The notes under the pieces: model-generated
Databases searched by the model: none
What the model was told of the DNA's origin: nothing
The model's input: the letters and a program-made list of their open reading frames with translations, nothing else
Program-made: the position numbers and the translations under genes
Shown: piece after piece, positions 22,343 through 23,801 of the stretch
Numbering within the stretch: the first letter of the stretch is position 1
Layout of the letters: every line of letters begins with the position of its first letter
Assembly (NCBI GenBank): GCA_012798115.1
Contig: JAAZNV010000007.1
Location: 89,586-129,739, forward strand
Direction of reading: 5' to 3'
DNA: 40,154 bases
DNA from: a candidate division WWE3 bacterium
GTDB lineage: Bacteria > Patescibacteriota > WWE3 > UBA101185 > UBA10185

Positions 22343-22393
22343 ATGATAAACAAATTATCTTTTAGATACCATAACTGGCATACTTCTGCGTAA
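22343..22393 (+). CDS. Leader peptide MINKLSFRYHNWHTSA of a ribosome-mediated attenuator
   Basis: 16-codon ORF directly upstream of competing hairpins; Trp codon at 22376-22378. Confidence 0.5.
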   Translation: MINKLSFRYHNWHTSA

Positions 22394-22461
22394 GCGGGTT
22401 TGCAGTTGGTGTCAATGAAGATACATACTTGATTAAACCCGCATAAAGCGGGTTATTTTTA
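22394..22461 (+). promoter_or_regulatory. Transcription attenuator upstream of M20 peptidase
   Basis: Antiterminator GCGGGTTT (22394-22401)/AAACCCGC (22435-22442) excludes terminator AACCCGC (22436-22442)/GCGGGTT (22448-22454) + ATTTTT. Confidence 0.7.
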
Positions 22462-22463
22462 TT

Positions 22464-23801
22464 ATGAAAGAAGGAAATGAACTATTAAATAAATTTAAAG
22501 AAAACTTAAGCGAGCTTATTAGGTATAGAAGTATCTCTACTGATAGTAGTTCTAAAAATGACATTGATAAGACATCAACTGCATTGGCTAGTATGTTTAA
22601 AAAGAATGGTTTTAAGACAAAAGTTCTCTATGGAAAAACCACAAACCCGTACGTTTTTGCAGAATACAAGATAGGTTCAAGCAAAAAGACAGTACTCATA
22701 TATGGCCATTATGATGTAATGCCTTCTGGTGATGAGAATAGTTGGAAGTCAAAACCATTTGAATTGACAGAAAGGTCAGGAAGACTATTTGGCAGAGGTA
22801 GTGTTGATAATAAAGGACAGCTACTTATTCACTTAACTGCAATTTCAGATTTAATTAAGAGTAAGAAGATTTGTTGTAATGTTAAGTTTCTTGTTGAAGG
22901 AAATGAAGAAACAGGAAATATTGAAATAGCTGATCTCATTAAGAGGAATAAAGAATTATTATCTTGTGATTATGTTTTAATATCTGATGGAGAGTTATGC
23001 GGCAACAAGCCAACAATTGAAGCCGGCTTTAGAGGTGGTGGAAACGTCAAAATAACTTACACTACTGCTAAATGTGATGTTCACTCTGGTCTATATGGTG
23101 GAGCTATACCAAACCCAGCTCATGAATTAAGTATTTTAATATCAAAGTTTTATGACAAAAACAACAAAGTAGCAATTCCTGGTTTTTACGAAGGGGCGGA
23201 TAAAATATCTCTTGAGGAAATAAGAAATAATAAGAGCTTGAAATTTAGCTTATCTAAGTTAAATGACTTAACAGGAATAAAAATCTTGAAAACTGAAAAA
23301 GGAATTGATTACTTTACTCAAGTAGGCTTAAGGCCTATGTTAACTGTTAGTGGACTTAAATCTGGTTATATAGGCGAAGGTTTTAATAACATTGTTCCTT
23401 GTTCTGCAGAAGCAAGGGTAAACTTCAGACTTGTTTCTTCACAAGATCCTAAAAATATTATCAGCAGTTTCTTGAAGTTTGTTAAGAAAAACACTCCATC
23501 TTACGTTAAGTATAAAGTTGAAGTAGATAATACTTTTAGTGCAATAAAATTAAATATTAAATCAAAATTAGTTATTGAATTAAAAAGTATTCTTGAAGAG
23601 GTTTATGAAAGTAAGGCTGTTTTTGTATTTGTTGGGGGGAGCGTTCCGGTTGTAAATTTCTTTAGAGACATATTAAATGTTGAAGTTGTATCAATACCTT
23701 TTGGAAATGAAGATTGCAATATGCATGGTTTAAACGAAAACTTTGATTTAAAGTTAGTGGAAAAAGCATTAAAAGTTTCAAAGGATATATTTAGTAAATA
23801 A
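22464..23801 (+). CDS. M20-family dipeptidase/carboxypeptidase
   Basis: VLIYGHYDVMPSG, LFGRGSVDNKGQL, EGNEETGN, catalytic-domain signatures. Confidence 0.92.
   Translation: MKEGNELLNKFKENLSELIRYRSISTDSSSKNDIDKTSTALASMFKKNGFKTKVLYGKTTNPYVFAEYKIGSSKKTVLIYGHYDVMPSGDENSWKSKPFELTERSGRLFGRGSVDNKGQLLIHLTAISDLIKSKKICCNVKFLVEGNEETGNIEIADLIKRNKELLSCDYVLISDGELCGNKPTIEAGFRGGGNVKITYTTAKCDVHSGLYGGAIPNPAHELSILISKFYDKNNKVAIPGFYEGADKISLEEIRNNKSLKFSLSKLNDLTGIKILKTEKGIDYFTQVGLRPMLTVSGLKSGYIGEGFNNIVPCSAEARVNFRLVSSQDPKNIISSFLKFVKKNTPSYVKYKVEVDNTFSAIKLNIKSKLVIELKSILEEVYESKAVFVFVGGSVPVVNFFRDILNVEVVSIPFGNEDCNMHGLNENFDLKLVEKALKVSKDIFSK

Follow-up and report, generated by a model that had tools for sequence, protein, structure and literature searches.

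A putative leader-peptide attenuator in front of an M20 peptidase gene in a candidate division WWE3 bacterium

Organization and distribution of the peptidase locus

The window that we analyzed is a stretch of 40,154 nucleotides from a candidate division WWE3 bacterium (GenBank assembly GCA_012798115.1, contig JAAZNV010000007.1, positions 89,586 to 129,739 of the forward strand), whose genome (G000) comprises 760,854 bases in 14 contigs and is 95% complete. Within this window, a gene for an M20 peptidase lies between a gene for a YdjM-like membrane protein and the genes for tRNA-Trp and tryptophanyl-tRNA synthetase (trpS), and each side of the peptidase gene has a short open reading frame with segments capable of alternative pairing. 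An earlier note, made from the letters of this sequence, had read the first of these arrangements as a leader peptide with an attenuator, and all of the elements that it named for leader 1 are present where it placed them, i.e., the open reading frame, its TAA stop codon (22391-22393) abutting GCGGGTTT, the segment AAACCCGC, the terminator and the peptidase ATG at 22464. The features, in window coordinates, are as follows.

21622..22212, + strand: YdjM-like membrane protein gene (Pfam YdjM), outside the switch
22305-22310, + strand: weak -35 element TTTTCT, in the window promoter of leader 1
22328..22333, + strand: -10 box TAAAAT (5/6), 9 nt 5' of the leader 1 ATG
22343..22393, + strand: leader peptide 1, MINKLSFRYHNWHTSA and stop, with counterparts in G003 and G004
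22356..22422, + strand: protector structure, predicted to form without a ribosome on leader 1 (RNAfold of 22343-22463)
22376..22378, + strand: putative regulatory Trp codon of leader 1, 15 nt 5' of the antiterminator arm
22394..22401, + strand: antiterminator 5' arm GCGGGTTT, pairing with 22435-22442; the helix covaries
22435..22442, + strand: shared segment AAACCCGC, serving as the 3' arm of the antiterminator and the 5' arm of the terminator; both helices covary
22436..22463, + strand: intrinsic terminator AACCCGC-ATAAA-GCGGGTT (22436-22454) with T-rich tail ATTTTTATT, directly 5' of the peptidase ATG
22464..23801, + strand: M20 peptidase/dipeptidase gene, 445 aa (Pfam Peptidase_M20, M20_dimer), the proposed controlled gene
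23804..23881, + strand: leader peptide 2, MNKLTYTYYWHFWRPSFRRDVSFVI and stop, its ATG 2 nt past the peptidase stop; counterpart in G004
23857-23861, + strand: attenuator 2 antiterminator arm GCGGG
23911-23925, + strand: attenuator 2 terminator CCCGCTAAGAGCGGG
23961..24206, + strand: 81-aa open reading frame, predicted direct target of attenuator 2
24283..24357, + strand: tRNA-Trp(CCA), with its own TATACT box 5'
24397..25425, + strand: trpS (TIGR00233, 272 bits; cut-off 176.75)

The peptidase scores above the gathering thresholds of Pfam Peptidase_M20 (88.6 bits) and M20_dimer (43.4 bits) and below the cut-off of the NCBIfam PRK08201 dipeptidase model, and the residues of the M20 metal site (H82-x-D84, D115, E148-E149, D175 and H421) are invariant in six homologues. 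Its nearest solved proteins are the carboxypeptidase Sso-CP2, DUG1 and CNDP2, such that it appears closest to dipeptidases and carboxypeptidases. Of its three best hits in named genomes, two belong to Amesbacteria and Kaiserbacteria, which, together with the small genomes found across the phylum, suggests a patescibacterial host.

Peptidases with 65% and 52% identity occupy the same locus in a genome of the same genus (G003) and in one of the same family (G004), and each is preceded by a leader. In two other genomes of the genus (G001 and G002), the corresponding place contains the YdjM-like gene, tRNA-Trp and trpS, and has neither the peptidase nor the leader. Because both are found in G000, G003 and G004 and both are missing from G001 and G002, the leader and the peptidase come or go together. 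The YdjM-like gene is the left neighbor in all four relatives (as read from the sequence in G001 and G002). Searches of the family and the class returned no leader-bearing peptidase other than those of G003 and G004, and the element was found neither with the more distant peptidases of G006, G010 and G043, which stand in other gene contexts, nor at 80 M20 loci from named genomes.

The tRNA-Trp gene is the sole one that ARAGORN found among the 50 tRNAs of G000, and trpS likewise has one match in this genome. Since a TATACT or TATAAT box lies about 15-20 nt 5' of tRNA-Trp in each of the five genomes compared, tRNA-Trp and trpS probably have a promoter of their own. Four genomes (G040, G016, G023 and G013, at loci L016, L019, L021 and L022) have, besides another trpS, a trpS like that of the window with tRNA-Trp directly 5' of it, which suggests that this pair of genes is mobile or duplicated; several of these loci show a terminator-like hairpin between tRNA-Trp and trpS.

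Leader peptides, promoters and competing helices

The peptidase-linked leader 1 open reading frames contain 15-16 codons and encode MINKLSFRYHNWHTSA in G000, MDRRLVIKIYRGWHNA in G003 and MGIQEFKHYRYWKAA in G004. These peptides have diverged and, when they are aligned by their stop codons, the sole constant is a Trp codon located 4-5 codons 5' of the stop. Of the NKL-x-aromatic...W-H pattern that had been ascribed to both leaders of the window, the W is kept in relatives and the NKL is not; the relatives display the opposite of a lost peptide with a retained hairpin, the outcome against which the earlier note had set its reading. When the second leaders are included, the last W codon lies 12-18 nt 5' of GCGGG in all five leaders (three of leader 1, two of leader 2), there being one W codon in leader 1 and two in leader 2. 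In each of the five, codons for W, H and Y also lie close together (YHNWH, IYRGWH, HYRYW, YYWHFW and HFRWYW).

The leader that was previously described as lying on the trpS side does have the W pattern, but it is longer than was quoted (i.e., MNKLTYTYYWHFWRPSFRRDVSFVI), and its direct target is the 81-aa open reading frame. It follows the peptidase as TAA-CA-ATG in G000 and as TAA-AT-ATG, continuing with MDIKPLAMHFRWYWNLLLAGGNSYGKT and a stop, in G004; this two-base spacing suggests translational coupling, whereby ribosomes leaving the peptidase would restart on leader 2. The 81-aa open reading frame contains Cys and has no match in Pfam or NCBIfam, and a weakly similar open reading frame occurs at the same place in G004 (29% identity, E 0.013).

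The near absence of a 5' leader before the leader 1 ATG, which would leave initiation leaderless, had been viewed as the weak point of the proposal. This short spacing is, however, kept in all three species and is typical of the genome: the -10 box lies 8-9 nt from the leader ATG in G000, in G003 (with a near-perfect promoter, TTGACG-16-TATAAT, 9 nt 5' of the ATG) and in G004 (TTGATT-17-AATACT, 8 nt 5' of the ATG). Among 601 open reading frame starts in G000, TAnnnT boxes peak at 6 nt before the ATG (101, as against about 25 at neighboring positions) and are enriched to a lesser degree at 7 and 9 nt. A Shine-Dalgarno-like motif is present at only 21% of starts. Because of this peak near the ATG and the low incidence of Shine-Dalgarno-like motifs, leaderless initiation looks common in G000. 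Judging from the spacing of the -10 box, transcription of leader 1 would start 0-3 nt before the ATG, making it a leaderless message.

The minimum-energy fold of the free RNA from 22343 to 22463 contains the protector and the terminator together, and the protector (pairs within 22356-22422) accounts for the pairing of the leader segment with GCAGTTGGTGTC that was noted before. After helix cores were excised by hand for the covariation alignment, the antiterminator core was paired in 93.3% and the terminator core in 94.3% of cells across the five attenuators, compared with 27-62% for slid helices. Both helices covary, as the earlier note had proposed to look for in relatives, with three pairs in the antiterminator and three in the terminator having changed on both sides; since only three leader-1 and two leader-2 sequences occur among the genomes examined, this covariation amounts to few events. 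Counting from the loop, the sixth pair involves a base of the shared segment that is A in leader 1 of G000, C in leader 1 of G004 and T in leader 2 of G004, and both competing partners of the segment have the matching T, G and A, respectively; in the remaining two leaders this pair is mismatched in both helices. Changes that are matched in both partners are what two mutually exclusive helices would predict, albeit in few sequences.

To be counted as the full architecture, a region needed a terminator, an antiterminator arm and an ATG-initiated leader with a Trp codon 9-21 nt 5' of the arm. These criteria were revised after an initial shuffle test had passed over G004, probably owing to a second G-U pair that greedy helix extension had added. 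For none of the five leader regions did any of 10,000 dinucleotide shuffles yield the full architecture. By the same criteria, a scan of all 760,854 bases of G000 yielded 91 terminator-like sites, five of which had an antiterminator arm and two of which passed, these being leader 1 and the leader at 23804. As far as these criteria reach, the apparent regulon in G000 therefore comprises no other locus. AT-rich DNA is rich in short open reading frames, and leader 1 could in principle be a chance open reading frame before the ordinary terminator of the upstream gene. This explanation is contradicted by the comparison of relatives and by the shuffles, in that the leader is conserved in three species, its helices covary, the architecture never arose by shuffling and the element is missing where the peptidase is missing, and we give it almost no credence. 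A T-box riboswitch was also considered and rejected, there being no Rfam T-box match up to E = 1 in positions 20000-26500.

Proposed regulation of the peptidase

Leader-peptide attenuation ahead of the peptidase, as claimed by the earlier note, is supported by the fixed distance of the W codon, the covarying helices and the linkage of the element to the peptidase, and we infer with high confidence that the M20 peptidase is under the control of a transcription attenuator of the ribosome-mediated (trpL) type, with tryptophan as its probable signal. Under this model, transcription would begin 0-3 nt 5' of the leader 1 ATG, and a ribosome would initiate on the leaderless mini-ORF. When charged tRNA-Trp is plentiful, the ribosome would reach the stop codon and cover the adjoining GCGGGTTT, leaving AAACCCGC free to form the terminator, such that the peptidase would not be transcribed. 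A shortage of charged tRNA-Trp would instead hold the ribosome at the single Trp codon 15 nt 5' of GCGGGTTT, and the exposed GCGGGTTT would pair with AAACCCGC, allowing readthrough into the peptidase. Ribosomes coming off the peptidase stop codon probably read the second attenuator, which would control the small open reading frame ahead of tRNA-Trp and trpS.

We modeled folding with the ribosome set codon by codon, assuming that its footprint covers 10 nt beyond the A site. A ribosome at the stop codon leaves the terminator favored by 10-12 kcal/mol in each of the five leaders. For leader 1 of G000, the antiterminator equals or exceeds the terminator in stability only when W12 or H13 occupies the A site (terminator minus antiterminator, +0.8 kcal/mol), and in leader 1 of G003 the energies are nearest balance at W13-N15. 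In leader 1 of G004, the nearest balance is at K13, which adjoins W12, and the antiterminator is never favored (at best -1.3 kcal/mol at K13, and -3.0 at W12); because static energies never favor the antiterminator there, the model for G004 depends on folding before the 3' arm is synthesized. In both cases of leader 2, the final position at which the antiterminator wins is either the last W codon itself or the codon after it. The folding model locates the switch at the Trp codon or beside it, with the spacing weakest in G004.

The same energies bear on a sensor resembling TnaC, in which free tryptophan would arrest the ribosome at the leader stop and induce the gene. A short peptide with one critical Trp in front of a gene would be in keeping with such a sensor; arrest at the stop would nonetheless hide the antiterminator arm and, in the folding model, bring about termination here. 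The features of TnaC that we compared are the position of its Trp relative to the stop and its C-terminal Pro: these leaders lack a C-terminal Pro and have W 4-5 codons away from the stop. On this geometry we reject TnaC-type arrest, to which we give a negligible likelihood.

A further alternative is that the same attenuator senses a shortage of several costly amino acids (Trp, His, Tyr and perhaps Phe), any such stall letting the antiterminator form first. The clustering of W, H and Y in all five leaders favors this reading, as does the prediction that, for stalls 5' of W, the shared segment stays fully paired upstream in the nascent RNA at most positions; moreover, other patescibacterial leaders with aromatic and His codons precede different putative hydrolases (loci L267 and L252, below). 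Against it, only W is at a fixed distance (12-18 nt) from the arm in five of five leaders, the leader 1 positions that most favor the antiterminator are at or next to W, and the neighboring genes are the sole tRNA-Trp and trpS. We regard a general sensor of this kind as possible though rather unlikely; within the tryptophan model, the proximity of Tyr and His codons to W in all five leaders means that specificity may be broader than Trp, these codons perhaps adding to the response.

Searches for trpA, indole-3-glycerol phosphate synthase and chorismate synthase found none of them in G000, whereas the same searches matched in 14 of 14 control genomes. Because these genes are missing, G000 is probably an aromatic amino acid auxotroph, in agreement with the tryptophan auxotrophy that had been thought probable, and from its gene content it very probably takes up aromatic amino acids. 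In a cell without a route to tryptophan synthesis, the peptidase would free amino acids from peptides, a proposed scavenging role. Most descriptions of ribosome-mediated attenuation concern genes for amino-acid biosynthesis, synthetases or drug resistance. In the present case, the enzyme that seems to be controlled serves scavenging in an organism unable to make the amino acid, which hints at how starvation could be sensed and answered by cells that have almost no biosynthesis.

The locus resembles trpL, the leader of the trp operon in enterobacteria (Rfam RF00513, Trp_leader), in having a short leader open reading frame with a Trp codon, a protector, an antiterminator and a terminator, and a stop adjoining the antiterminator arm, but its target is a peptidase rather than biosynthesis, and leader 1 has a single Trp codon, whereas such leaders usually, though not necessarily, have a run of regulatory codons. 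Because the RF00513 model scores 21.8 bits at leader 1 and 25.5 at leader 2, both under the gathering threshold of 41, the locus is not filed in that family. For trpS2 of Streptomyces avermitilis, an attenuator has been predicted (Seliverstov 2005, PMC1262725) that likewise combines a Trp-codon leader and a terminator/antiterminator with a tRNA-charging context; it differs in that the first target here is a peptidase and that the linked tRNA-Trp and trpS seem to be served by a promoter of their own. The trpL of Sinorhizobium meliloti, which regulates trpE(G), is leaderless (PMC7298713), and our leader open reading frame would similarly stand at the extreme 5' end of the transcript, the promoter spacing implying a 5' UTR of 0-3 nt.

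Attenuators of the same build can also sense ribosome-targeting antibiotics, as does the leader controlling the ABC transporter BmrC/BmrD (bmrCD) in Bacillus subtilis (PMC4191407), which shares ribosome-mediated attenuation through a leader open reading frame and differs from the present case in its antibiotic signal and its ABC transporter target. By this analogy, the operon might be induced by a drug that slows translation of the leader or inhibits TrpRS. We think this very unlikely: the target is a peptidase beside tRNA-Trp and trpS, and not an efflux, methylase or ABC-F gene, and the peptide is conserved at W alone, whereas one would expect wider conservation in an arrest peptide that depends on a drug. 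Among open-access papers, we found neither a description of leader-peptide attenuation in patescibacteria nor a dipeptidase under a Trp leader. The working principle of the tryptophan attenuator is ordinary ribosome-mediated attenuation; what is new is the peptidase target, the leaderless and tandem layout, and the patescibacterial host.

Leader peptides elsewhere in Patescibacteria

We scanned 389 genomes of the phylum for the GCGGG...CCCGC...GCGGG pattern, with a widened gap range, and then read the leaders. Many of the matches were ordinary terminators or coding DNA. At L255, L256, L261, L262, L281 and L285, the leaders have codons that fit the next gene. Patescibacterial leaders include ones that are Thr-rich 5' of thrS, that contain HH 5' of hisS or WW 5' of a trpB-like gene, that are Lys-rich 5' of aspartokinase or Met-rich 5' of a homocysteine-methyltransferase-like gene, and that contain Phe 5' of a pheS-like gene (with targets named by Pfam for thrS, hisS, the PLP enzyme and AA_kinase, and by sequence reading for the others).

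Cognate-codon leaders before several genes suggest a broader pattern. Our judgment tips only slightly in favor of the wider proposition that leader-peptide attenuation, in some cases leaderless, is a widespread and undescribed layer of regulation in Patescibacteria, which would switch on peptidases, aminoacyl-tRNA synthetases and such amino-acid genes as are left whenever one particular charged tRNA is short. If true, auxotrophs with reduced genomes would use tiny open reading frames to answer the shortage of specific charged tRNAs. The leader codons of an attenuator such as that of the window also offer a testable sign, readable from sequence, of which amino acids are limiting in uncultured patescibacteria.

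Other leaders precede genes of different kinds. Those at L249, L250 and L253 contain W, H, Y and F codons, end in AGV- or AGM-like motifs and lie 5' of genes for three large proteins of 436-509 aa, none of which matches Pfam; the L250 protein shows weak similarity to both of the others. Leaders with aromatic and His codons, MLSKFYFRYHRWCKTPERAGVAVVA (L267:470-598) and MENTNINKTYWFTHYTPANRGFVFALLS (L252:1012-1149), lie 5' of an S9/S33-type alpha/beta hydrolase and an AstE/AspA-type enzyme, respectively, and these targets are possibly further scavenging enzymes. In G018 (L058:1441-1548), a leader with Ser codons, MNDRTDVLNNYSPSNSTGFTAG, forms an attenuator-like arrangement 5' of an apparent SerB-type HAD phosphatase, so named by sequence reading.
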